Below, one piece after another: positions 7,742 to 33,409 of a stretch of DNA of 50,976 nt. The stretch comes from a virus. The number at the start of each line of letters is the position of its first letter. Within the stretch, counting starts at the first letter, position 1. The position numbers and the translations under genes are program-made. Location: the IMG/VR virus record IMGVR_UViG_3300033149_003293, positions 1 through 50,976 of that record; one strand, written 5' to 3'. The notes beneath the pieces were generated by a model. It was not told the origin of the DNA. It worked only from the letters and a program-made list of their open reading frames with translations, and searched no databases.

Positions 7742-8971
7742 TTATTTACCCCGAGCTTTTTCAAGCTCTTTATCATATGGATCATCTCCAGCATAATACC
7801 AAATTCCCTCTGGTTTAAATTTCCACCCTTTTATTAGCTTGAATTTAAGCGATTTGCCCGTCAAGGATTCTTCTGTTTTTCTATTTTTACACTTCAATAT
7901 CTTCGCCATTCCATATAGACCGTCCTTATCTCGCTTAGTATCGAAAATCATATATAAGCGGGGGTAGTGCATTGAATACTCTTTCCCATATCCCAAATCT
8001 CTATCAAATGGCTTTTGTAGGGCAGCTATACAAATACCGGTCTTTAATTTTTGGTGAATCCGCTTGAATGTTTGTCCAACCTTAAATGGTTCATCCTCTT
8101 GAATAAAGTCTATAATCGTTACCCCGTCTGATAAAACCACATCCTCAAAATTACTGTCTCGTTCATAAACTTCATCTAAATCCCAATCATCTTCTTTCAT
8201 ATCCTCATGTAGGGATACTCGCTTCCTAAACTCTTGTTCACCCATATCATTAACAAGATACAATGCTTGTCTTCCATAAACCCTTTGTATTTTCTTTTGA
8301 TTTGCAGCCAACCATCGTAATAGATACGCTGTTTTCCCACCATCTGGATGAGAACAAATCACAATAAGATTTTTCTGGTAGCAACAAAAAAACTCATCAA
8401 GGTTTAACCCAAATGTAAATGGCAATGGCTCGGTTGGTGCATTTCGCCACTCTAACTTAGTTAACTCTCGCTCAACCCTCCTAAATTTTCCCTGTTCTTT
8501 TGGATGTCGCTCAATAACTTCCTTCTCTAATTCCCTTAAAATAGCCTGATATGCCCCCTTTTTTTCCCCTTTTGTAGTTAAGTGTAGTTCATTGTAAATT
8601 CTTGTAGTTGTCCACCAACCACTTGTAGTCCTAATCCAGTCTTGTACCATTTTGGTCATTCCGGTTTTTTCTTGTTTTTTTTCTCTATCCGCTACTTTTC
8701 CGATTTCTTCCATATAGTTTTTGACAGCGTAGACATCATTGGTTTCAAAGAGTGTTCCCCAATATTCCCACATCTTTTTATATATATCCCACTGTTCCAG
8801 GTCTTTCTTCCATTGTTTAAAATCTTCTTCTTTAATCTTGTTTAAATCTATATCATCTCCTTTGAAGTGTTTTTGTAATAACTCTATTTCTTGGGGGGAG
8901 AGATTCATGTAGTTCTCCGTAGCTATTTGTAGTTCACTTGTAGTTTTCTTGCCATTTTTTGTAGTTGTCAT
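7742..8971 (-). CDS. winged-helix plus RecA-fold replicative helicase/initiator-like protein, 409 aa
   Basis: Residues about 106-163 read as a winged helix (DWIRTTSGWWTTTRIYNELH ... AILRELEKEVIERHP ... GKFRRVE). A RecA-type ATPase follows, with Walker A CSHPDGGKT (207-214) and Walker B GVTIIDF (284-289), then an ALQKP sensor-like stretch. This layout suits a phage initiator that binds origin DNA and opens it or loads helicase. It resembles DnaB/RepA-type ATPases, without a recognisable primase domain. The start at 8971 lacks a strong binding site and overlaps the small gene upstream by ATGA. The 5' third of the gene carries two phased TGTAGTT arrays. No polymerase is encoded, so the host replisome is the likely partner. 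Confidence 0.65.
   Translation of the reverse strand: MTTTKNGKKTTSELQIATENYMNLSPQEIELLQKHFKGDDIDLNKIKEEDFKQWKKDLEQWDIYKKMWEYWGTLFETNDVYAVKNYMEEIGKVADREKKQEKTGMTKMVQDWIRTTSGWWTTTRIYNELHLTTKGEKKGAYQAILRELEKEVIERHPKEQGKFRRVERELTKLEWRNAPTEPLPFTFGLNLDEFFCCYQKNLIVICSHPDGGKTAYLLRWLAANQKKIQRVYGRQALYLVNDMGEQEFRKRVSLHEDMKEDDWDLDEVYERDSNFEDVVLSDGVTIIDFIQEDEPFKVGQTFKRIHQKLKTGICIAALQKPFDRDLGYGKEYSMHYPRLYMIFDTKRDKDGLYGMAKILKCKNRKTEESLTGKSLKFKLIKGWKFKPEGIWYYAGDDPYDKELEKARGK
8573..8630. repeat. iteron-like TGTAGTT array 2 (inside helicase gene)
   Basis: Exact TGTAGTT occurs at 8573, 8583 and 8603, with degenerate copies TGTAAAT at 8593 and TGTAGTC at 8624. Spacing is 10, 10, 10 and 21 bp, placing all copies on nearly one face of the helix. 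The array lies in the codons for the winged-helix domain. It may be an initiator binding site. Confidence 0.6.
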
Positions 8972-8977
8972 GTAGTT
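8908..8977. repeat. iteron-like TGTAGTT array 1 (helicase gene start)
   Basis: Exact TGTAGTT occurs at 8908, 8928, 8939, 8960 and 8971, plus a degenerate CGTAGCT at 8918. Steps are 10, 10, 11, 21 and 11 bp, again in helical phase. The array covers the helicase start codon and ends 10 bp from the CG tract and AT-rich stretch, as expected for a replication origin. Confidence 0.65.
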
Positions 8978-9135
8978 ATTTCCCCACGCGCGCGCGCGAA
9001 AAGAATAAGAATATAAGAATAAGAAAAGAGATAAGAAAGAATACAAGAAAGAAAGAGTACTCGGTTTTCCCTTAGTGAGGGAAACCTCGTACTCAACATC
9101 ACTGCCCTGCGCCTGCCTGCCACAGCTCCGCTCAT
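8968..9135 (-). CDS. possible 55-aa membrane protein overlapping the origin-like region
   Basis: The frame starts MSGAVAGRRRAVMLSTRF and has a hydrophobic span VLFLSCILSYLFSYSYILIL near the C-terminus. It overlaps both neighbours by ATGA, as most real genes here do, and a GGGGGAAGAA leader precedes its start. Against it, the hydrophobic part is translated from the low-complexity AT-rich tract, and the end from the CG run. The stretch may instead be non-coding origin DNA. Confidence 0.4.
   Translation of the reverse strand: MSGAVAGRRRAVMLSTRFPSLRENRVLFLSCILSYLFSYSYILILFARARGEITT
8987..9094. other. CG tract, AT-rich purine tract and hairpin beside the iteron-like array
   Basis: CGCGCGCGCGCG (8987-8998) is a possible Z-DNA former. 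It is followed by about 55 bases that are nearly all A, G and T with repeated AAGAATA words (8999-9054), a candidate unwinding element. An imperfect inverted repeat comes next (9055-9094; arms GAGTAC/GTACTC and CCCT/AGGG around TAGTG). The hairpin could also act as a terminator or attenuator for leftward transcripts, because a T-rich stretch follows on that strand. Confidence 0.55.
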
Positions 9136-31413: not shown

Positions 31414-32841
31414 ATGAGCATACATTTATACCACCGCCCGAGTGCGGAAGATTTGAGTCTGGCTGACTTAACCATTAAAGACCAGATAAATATCGGCGAT
31501 GGAACAGATACACATATATTAAAGGCTGTTTCTGAGACGGGATTGGGAGGCAGGTATACCATTGGTTTGGATGAAACTGCCCGCACGATGGTGATTTGTG
31601 ATGTGGGGGATATTGATACTGATTTTGGTTTGTCTGCTGCTAGTTTCCCGACAACGTATTGGATGGACGCAGACGGTGACAGCTATTTTCTGATTGGATG
31701 GGATTCTGATGATGTGCCGAAATTAGAGGCTGGTGGAAGTGCGGATAAGATTGGGGTATATTCGGATGTATTCACCGACCGTTGGCTTGAGCAGGATTCT
31801 AATACATTTTTCGGGGTTAGTGTTGCAGGTGCGGATAATTTGGCGCATGGTGCCGAAAATGAAGGTTATTCCAACTCAGCTTTTGGGCGACAAGCTTTGT
31901 TTTCCATCACTACAGGCAGTTACAACTCAGCTTTTGGGGTAAATACTTTGTTTCCCAACACTACAGGTTCTGAAAATTCAGCCTTTGGGTCAGAATCTCT
32001 TAGCTCCATCACTACAGGCAGTTACAACTCAGCTTTTGGGCGGAGGGCCTTATACTCCAATACCACAGCCTCTAGTAATTCAGCTTTTGGGCAGTACGCT
32101 CTTCGCTACAACACTACCGGTGCTTACAATTCAGTTTTTGGGCGATATACTATATATGCCAATACTACAGGCTCTAATAATACAGCTCTTGGATTTAGTG
32201 CCGGTCGCTACCAATCCGATGGTTCCTCTGCGCTCGAAACACCCGAAAATTCCGTATATATCGGGGCAGAGGTAAAATCAGGCTCTGACCCTGATGGCGG
32301 TGAGGATGCAATAGATAACGAGATAGTTATCGGATATAACGCTACTGGAAACGGGGCAAATACGGTAACGCTTGGCAACTCGTCTATTACTGAGTTTCAT
32401 TGTCAAGTCTCTCTGACTGTGGATTCGGACAGGCGGATTAAGCGGGACATCACACCGTTGTCTGACGGGCTGGATTTTATCAATGCCCTTAAACCAATCA
32501 CTTTCAGGCGACTCAATCCTGCCGACTGGTCAAGTAGAATCAGACCATCGGAGTATAAAGATAGAGAAATCGAGGAATATGATGAGAAGGAAAAAAAGCT
32601 AAAGAAGAGAATTGAAAAAGCCTTGCCTCGACCAGAGGATATAGATGATGTGGAGTTAGGTCTAATAGCCCAGGAAGTAGAGGAAGTGCTTAATGAACAG
32701 GGGCTTGATTATAATCTCGTTGCCACAAATCCGTTGGGACGAAAGAGTTTGAAATATTCTGCTCTTGTGGTTCCTCTCATAAAAGCTGTTCAGGAATTAT
32801 CAGACCGTGTTGCTACACTTGAGGCAAGGAGAATCAATTAG
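31414..32841 (+). CDS. tail fibre with 17-residue repeats and S74 chaperone domain, 475 aa
   Basis: The N-terminal 150 residues are an attachment region. Seven NSAFG-x4-L-x4-TTG units with exact 17-residue period start at residues 154, 171, 188, 205, 222, 239 and 256, resembling trimeric autotransporter head repeats (collagen-like trimer stacks). The C-terminus is a peptidase-S74 intramolecular chaperone: SDRRIKRDI (S338 and K343 are the catalytic dyad), LGLIAQEVEEVL and YSALVVPLIKAVQEL. It should trimerise and then cleave itself, leaving a receptor-binding fibre. Confidence 0.85.
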   Translation: MSIHLYHRPSAEDLSLADLTIKDQINIGDGTDTHILKAVSETGLGGRYTIGLDETARTMVICDVGDIDTDFGLSAASFPTTYWMDADGDSYFLIGWDSDDVPKLEAGGSADKIGVYSDVFTDRWLEQDSNTFFGVSVAGADNLAHGAENEGYSNSAFGRQALFSITTGSYNSAFGVNTLFPNTTGSENSAFGSESLSSITTGSYNSAFGRRALYSNTTASSNSAFGQYALRYNTTGAYNSVFGRYTIYANTTGSNNTALGFSAGRYQSDGSSALETPENSVYIGAEVKSGSDPDGGEDAIDNEIVIGYNATGNGANTVTLGNSSITEFHCQVSLTVDSDRRIKRDITPLSDGLDFINALKPITFRRLNPADWSSRIRPSEYKDREIEEYDEKEKKLKKRIEKALPRPEDIDDVELGLIAQEVEEVLNEQGLDYNLVATNPLGRKSLKYSALVVPLIKAVQELSDRVATLEARRIN

Positions 32842-32890
32842 ACATAGATTAGACATAGATTAGATATAGATTAGATATAGATTAGATATA
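32840..32890. repeat. 11-bp tandem repeat between genes
   Basis: AGACATAGATT twice, AGATATAGATT twice, then AGATATA: 4.6 copies covering the stop of the fibre gene and the leader of the next. The period is about one DNA turn. Confidence 0.9.
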
Positions 32891-32893
32891 AAA

Positions 32894-33409
32894 ATGCTAG
32901 ATAAAACACTTTACGAATATCCAGATGTTCTGGGTGAGAAGTGGTATGCCTGTGTCAAATGTGGGGCTGCATACAAGATGGCAGAGGTGTGGTTCGACTC
33001 AGGTTCTACCGCCCCGACTGCCGACGAGACTTTCACAGGTGCTACATCCGGCGATACCGGAGTGGTGGTGGACTATCAGCTTTATTCTGGGACTTTCGCA
33101 GGTGGAGACGCTGCGGGGGTAGTTACGCTCAAAACCCTTACTGGTTCATCTACCGACTCTGATACACTCGTTGAGACTATCTTCCAGGATGATGAGAACC
33201 TGAATGGCAGTACAGCAGGTGATAATTGTATGACCGTGAAAGGTACTCCACAGGTGATGAAATATGGCAGGCTATATCCAGAGAGCCAGACTGCTATATT
33301 CAGAGGGAAACGGTATTGCTCTGCACACTATAGGTGGCATGTGAATCACATACTAATGGACGAGGCAAAAATCACGATCGATGACGGAGATCGTGGCAGC
33401 GTTTGGTAA
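32894..33409 (+). CDS. structural protein with beta insert, 171 aa
   Basis: The N-terminus has YACVKCGAAYKMAEVWFDSG, where a CxxC leads into a beta-rich Gly/Thr/Asp stretch (TFTGATSGDTGVVVDYQLYS) like those inserted in virion proteins. The C-terminus has CSAHYRWHV and an acidic end. Tail or baseplate-type accessory by position. No binding site is clear in the repeated leader. Confidence 0.5.
   Translation: MLDKTLYEYPDVLGEKWYACVKCGAAYKMAEVWFDSGSTAPTADETFTGATSGDTGVVVDYQLYSGTFAGGDAAGVVTLKTLTGSSTDSDTLVETIFQDDENLNGSTAGDNCMTVKGTPQVMKYGRLYPESQTAIFRGKRYCSAHYRWHVNHILMDEAKITIDDGDRGSVW

Follow-up and report, generated by a model that had tools for sequence, protein, structure and literature searches.

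We show computationally that the gene for a predicted winged-helix ATPase in an uncultured virus contains two helically phased arrays of a short word, that phased arrays occupy the same position in homologous genes, that all copies of the word change in concert within a virus and covary with the recognition helix of the winged-helix domain (wHTH), and that arrays and domain took part in one cassette swap. We consider it likely that the arrays are iterons bound by the wHTH encoded in the same DNA, and that they form the replication origin of the virus; origin function is inferred here, as are physical binding, hexamer loading and the number of hexamers. The window analysed is IMGVR_UViG_3300033149_003293 (50,976 bp), the entire record of one uncultured virus, and the features on which the argument rests are the following.

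7742..8971, minus strand: gene for a wHTH plus RecA/DnaB-like ATPase, 409 aa; probable ATG at 8969-8971, longest ORF from a TTG at 9046
7787..8434, minus strand: codons of the RecA-fold ATPase core (about residues 180-395; Walker A HPDGGKT)
8477..8656, minus strand: codons of the winged-helix domain (about residues 106-165), from AlphaFold2 secondary structure and the family alignment
8531..8563, minus strand: codons of the recognition-helix segment KKGAYQAILRE (residues 137-147), from the covariation results
8573..8630, plus strand: array 2, within wHTH codons; exact TGTAGTT at 8573, 8583 and 8603, variants TGTAAAT at 8593 and TGTAGTC at 8624
8908..8977, plus strand: array 1, spanning the start codon and N-terminal codons; exact TGTAGTT at 8908, 8928, 8939, 8960 and 8971, variant CGTAGCT at 8918
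8987..8998, strand not applicable: (CG)6 tract immediately outside array 1
8999..9058, strand not applicable: purine-rich, AT-rich tract flanking array 1
9055..9094, strand not applicable: inverted repeat GAGTAC...GTACTC, upstream of the helicase gene

The steps between copies are 10, 11 and 21 bp, which confirms a preliminary description of this DNA in which two helically phased TGTAGTT arrays were placed inside the helicase gene, over both its start and its winged-helix codons. That description also held that the reading would fail if the word were equally frequent elsewhere, which it is not: 8 of the 16 exact copies on both strands of the 50,976-bp record fall inside the array span of 405 bp. 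The array signal lies in clustering and phasing rather than in total frequency, because the record-wide count with at most one mismatch is barely raised (189 versus 162 +/- 12 by chance, a mild excess only). Synonymous-codon shuffling that leaves the protein unchanged loses the array (200 shuffles; P <= 0.005 for 6-mers and P <= 0.035 for 5-mers), and the copies are read in differing frames (as TT, EL and NY codons) and so do not constitute a protein repeat.

The combination of winged helix and ATPase previously assigned to the array-bearing gene is borne out by structural modelling. An AlphaFold2 model based on 18 aligned sequences (mean pLDDT 81.5) has a long helical N-terminal part, then a winged helix (H106-115, E119-121, H122-128, H134-149, E153-155, E162-165) and then a RecA-type core, and Foldseek matched it to RecA, KaiC, DnaB, T7 gp4 and RadA. 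The protein qualifies as a RecA-fold ATPase with a Walker A motif and gave weak matches to PHROG 19 and 243 (DnaB-like helicase), while Pfam returned no match to it, DnaB_C included. No Prim-Pol domain is present in this protein or anywhere in the window record.

Relatives were not found by single-protein scans of viral and genome collections, nor with a two-sequence alignment as query; a three-sequence alignment succeeded. The earliest homologues matched were vir555 and then MetMV, and IMG/VR searches enlarged the family to 112 distinct members, a 19-sequence alignment being too diverse for searching. These homologues include Methanosarcina virus MetMV and Methanomicrobiales virus vir555, the only members here with a recorded host. 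The host of the window virus is unknown; its portal protein matches scattered viruses, one of Methanomicrobiales among them, and a 14-genome Prim-Pol control offered no route to archaeal host genomes. Many homologues are Prim-Pol fusions (the domain is present in MetMV, vir555, L109 and L144), at least one has a DnaB N-terminal domain, and MetMV, L109 and L144 pass the DnaB_C cut-off. One homologue (L124:2000-4669) has a long in-frame insertion that splits the P-loop and appears intein-like, by eye only.

Phased arrays are a recurrent property of this family. We calibrated the detection criterion on 1,217 ATPase-coding segments. Within a 102-bp interval around the wHTH codons it identifies a phased array in 49 of the 110 testable homologues, where chance would give 0.3, and 59 of 110 have one either there or up to 1.2 kb upstream; about half of the homologues show no array by these detection criteria. 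The arrangement thus passes, in these proportions, the check that relatives keeping the protein should also keep the array. The density of phased chains of at least four identical 6-mers is 30.4 per 10 kb for wHTH codons and 5.5 per 10 kb for the linker/upstream zone; 81 kb of ATPase coding sequence contain none, and the rest of the loci has 0.29 per 10 kb. The mean array step across the family is 10.26 bp per turn. Array 2 of the window occupies the same codons as in 48 other relatives and, like most of them, has a turn without the word (near 8613). In distant members array 2 again falls on the same codons, its first step is usually 21 bp, and the skipped turn coincides with conserved Gly/aromatic codons of the wHTH, which suggests, by inference, that the protein could not give up these residues. 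A second array, to which array 1 of the window corresponds, lies about 200-300 bp upstream in many homologues, mostly 250-290 bp upstream of the anchor codon. Prim-Pol members carry their arrays deep within the ORF, hundreds of bases from its start, with the distance to the wHTH codons kept, and several relatives (L114, L115, L123, L137 and L184) have arrays just upstream of the gene. The vir555 locus has 11 GTTGAA words at 9-12 bp steps (with one 20-bp gap) just upstream of the wHTH codons. In MetMV, ACCACAA-type words form one array in the linker and another in the wHTH codons.

The words themselves differ among viruses (TGTCTACAA, TGACCACAA, TGTCCACAA, TGTCGTCAT, TGACTTCAA and GCGTTACAA, and further GCGTAACAA, TTGTGACAA, AGGGGACAA and AAGCGACAA); on the coding strand the window has GAACTACAA, and the family form, roughly 9 bp long, is NNNNNACAA. 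All copies within a virus have changed together, because within-virus agreement far exceeds what permutation gives: over five sites in 23 strictly registered members, mean concordance was 65.1 versus 47.6 (maximum 50.7) when sites were permuted among members 2,000 times, a null under which agreement is tested beyond positional composition. We then related word bases to every alignment column by mutual information in 49 members, with similar sequences down-weighted. The top four of the 253 columns outside the array codons were recognition-helix positions 37, 34, 41 and 38 (excess mutual information 2.55, 2.23, 1.96 and 1.53 bits), whereas the 212 ATPase columns had a mean excess of 0.06 (helix versus ATPase, P = 5e-6). 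These four positions, K138, Y141, Q142 and L145 of the window protein in the order 34, 37, 38 and 41, have the spacing i, i+3, i+4, i+7 of a single helix face; position 37 is linked chiefly to word bases 3-4, and position 38 to base 5.

The same four residues predict the word. Nearest neighbours chosen by them differed by 1.37 mismatches over five core word bases, compared with about 2.5 for neighbours chosen by ATPase similarity, 2.8 at random and an average of 2.6 for other wHTH columns, and none of 1000 random sets of four ATPase columns matched the helix prediction. The comparison with other wHTH columns matters because the word and the helix codons adjoin, so that linkage alone could yield some covariation; these columns predicted the word much worse, although they are not an independent control. 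Relatedness was handled by weighting and internal controls, without a full tree-based test, and word registers came from an automatic fit that may have misregistered divergent words such as those of L183, L186, L239 and L140. As examples of helix-word pairs, Ser-Ile goes with GTCTAC, Ser-Lys with GTCGTC, Ser-Glu with GTCCAC and Arg-Val with GTTAC, and two homologues outside the 49 (L114 and L175) combine, by eye, a Ser-Lys helix with TCGTCA / GTCGTC arrays, matching the Ser-Lys members. Self-recognition of the arrays by the wHTH is strongly supported by this covariation, in the absence of binding data. It is reasonably probable, in our judgement, that the wHTH-coding DNA is its own binding site, that residues 34, 37, 38 and 41 set word bases 2-5 while ACAA is fixed, and that specificity diversifies and recombines as one cassette. 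If the DNA that codes for the reader domain is also its binding site, with a recognition code between the two, it would follow that origin specificity can diversify and recombine as a self-contained cassette.

One pair of relatives bears on such recombination. Identity between L108 and L124 is 83-100% over their Prim-Pol DNA and 83-85% where the ATPase begins, yet it falls to 48-67% in the linker array, the intervening DNA and the wHTH with its array. Over this stretch of arrays plus wHTH, L124 instead resembles L107 (mostly 72-97%), with the same word in both, while L107 and L124 diverge more in Prim-Pol. The simplest reading of these sequences is that arrays and reader were replaced together. 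Recombination can swap iterons and reader together because both share one DNA stretch, and the gene and its probable replication start site appear to travel as a swappable unit.

The DNA beside array 1 was a further part of the preliminary description, and the CG run, AT/purine stretch and inverted repeat that it listed are all present. The CG run recurs in two relatives, since (CG)n tracts with n of at least 4 also occur in the equivalent zone of L164 and L277; with the window this makes three cases in 7 kb of upstream zone, which are few, and there are none in the other 410 kb scanned. Across the family, the zone upstream of array 1 is enriched in G-runs, C-runs and (CG)n tracts. Where array 1 lies inside the gene (25 members), the 70 bp on its upstream side have an AT content of 0.67 versus a gene mean of 0.58 (P = 3e-5), and no AT-richness was found on its downstream side. 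By analogy with the AT-rich DNA upstream of relatives' array 1, the tract at 8999..9058 may be regarded as a candidate unwinding region, although the flank in the window itself is not distinctive (AT 0.63 versus 0.63 in its gene), though purine-rich. A GC-skew inflection had been predicted near 8.6-9.1 kb; none is present there, and skew in the window instead reverses near 15 kb, at the switch in gene orientation, and gives no support for an origin. The earlier proposal of a candidate origin is supported in its sequence features, with origin-like iterons inside the gene, arrays at the wHTH codons in 49 of 110 homologues and a word that covaries with the helix; the skew signal is not supported.

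In the mechanism that we propose, each wHTH would read one roughly 9-bp word per helical turn, so that several subunits would line up on a single face of the DNA. A RecA/DnaB-like ring would then be loaded beside array 1, on the flanking, easily melted DNA, and replication would start after this loading of the ATPase ring.

Other explanations have to be weighed against this one. The main rival holds that the arrays are an autoregulatory operator through which the protein does no more than repress its own gene, at transcription or translation, with replication starting elsewhere. Autoregulation is frequent among initiators, array 1 of the window overlaps the start codon, and the arrays just upstream of the gene in the relatives named above would suit an operator; yet in Prim-Pol members both arrays lie deep in the ORF, keeping their distance to the wHTH codons and not to a promoter, and array 1 has an AT-rich flank within the gene; we regard the operator as unlikely. 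It seems very improbable to us that the wHTH instead binds the arrays as a centromere-like partition site or a packaging site, and that the ATPase serves as some motor other than a replicative helicase. Some plasmid partition systems do employ phased repeats of 10-11 bp, and the ATPase matches KaiC and RecA besides DnaB, but the Prim-Pol and DnaB N-terminal fusions, together with the DnaB_C matches of several members, tie the protein to replication.

The two remaining readings deny the wHTH its role as reader. We think there is only a slight chance that another small protein, viral or host, reads the arrays: TGTAGTT-type arrays do exist in viruses without a detected helicase, but the word tracks the face of the recognition helix and not the ATPase, and arrays and wHTH were swapped as a cassette. 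The repeats could also be a by-product of conserved Thr-Thr/Ser-Thr motifs in the wHTH, without any role as DNA, given that the words often translate as TT, ST or VT in corresponding columns of the alignment. This we consider next to negligible, for the upstream array places the same word in unrelated codons and a change of word brings a joint change of the amino acids; a protein-repeat origin of the arrays is ruled out by their different frames and by their loss in synonymous shuffles.

As to arrays outside the family, our first word-pattern scan of IMG/VR returned 16 contigs versus 4 for a reversed-word control, and the word alone is no family marker, because the helicase was not detected in the 12 of these contigs tested. 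TGTAGTT arrays with 10-11 bp steps lie beside or near a related gene for a DnaG-type primase of ~1,070 aa at L006:8076-8113, L017:2283-2320 and L018:991-1027, three loci in which the present helicase was not detected, and L011 has a TGTAGTT array near a D5/PriCT-type protein. At L082:5185-5560, L051:5360-5720 and other Prevotella/Bacteroidales loci, TGTAGTT arrays form inverted pairs with a spacing of about 250-300 bp; these pairs recur on several contigs of one genome and are probably a separate regulatory or mobile element. The window itself has another repeat at 32837-32890, five tandem copies of the 11-bp ATTAGATATAG between ORFs 31414-32841 and 32894-33409.

The general layout is already known, since in lambdoid phages the middle of gene O contains both iterons and an AT-rich region, with four iterons in lambda and six in Stx phages (PMC7466680). 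The present arrays resemble the lambda origin in that repeated words lie within the gene of the putative initiator, a likeness that extends to the words and is without binding data, while AT-rich DNA beside the arrays is seen across 25 relatives and not distinctly in the window; the arrays differ in consisting of about 9-bp words, one per turn, in two arrays, one of them over the codons of the reader domain. Lambda O iterons are about 18 bp each, and the window system, with its 9-bp words and ATPase-type protein, does not belong with iterons of that length and an O-type initiator. Moreover, lambda O is no helicase, whereas the proposed reader in our family forms one protein with a RecA/DnaB-like ATPase. 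The helicases SaPI Rep and SCCmec Cch2 each use a dsDNA-binding domain of their own to recognise short direct repeats beside the gene; that domain is C-terminal, and the origins are downstream of the gene (PMC7581432). In our family, by contrast, the arrays are intragenic and the wHTH lies N-terminal to the ATPase. The two helicases also belong to other ATPase types. Many homologues share with the pRN1 ORF904 type the fusion of Prim-Pol to a helicase-like ATPase, although the window protein is without Prim-Pol. The minimal replicon of pRN1 is reported to require sequences on both sides, upstream of the operon as well as downstream (PMC4234260), and intragenic arrays are not among these reported requirements, which sets it apart from the present system. 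DnaB, T7 gp4 and RadA are like the window protein in predicted fold and Walker A, and relatives have DnaB_C matches. We know of no helicase of the DnaB, T7 gp4 or RadA type with a sequence-specific wHTH that reads iterons in its own gene. The paper on MetMV does not mention replication, primase or helicase (PMC7164591), and our literature searches, confined to openly licensed papers, found no description of the present arrangement and only noise for the word itself. What is new relative to known intragenic iteron origins is the use of about 9-bp words once per turn, their position in reader-domain codons, a reader of helicase type and an apparent recognition code.

To our knowledge, little is known of replication initiation in the tailed viruses of methanogenic archaea. 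Our findings provide a concrete, testable origin/initiator module for a large and mostly unnamed virus family that includes MetMV and vir555, some of whose viruses infect methane-making archaea. About 49 natural pairs of word and recognition helix make a winged-helix recognition code readable, and the family could supply orthogonal origin/initiator pairs. In these viruses, one stretch of DNA would be selected both as the code for a DNA-reading domain and as its target.
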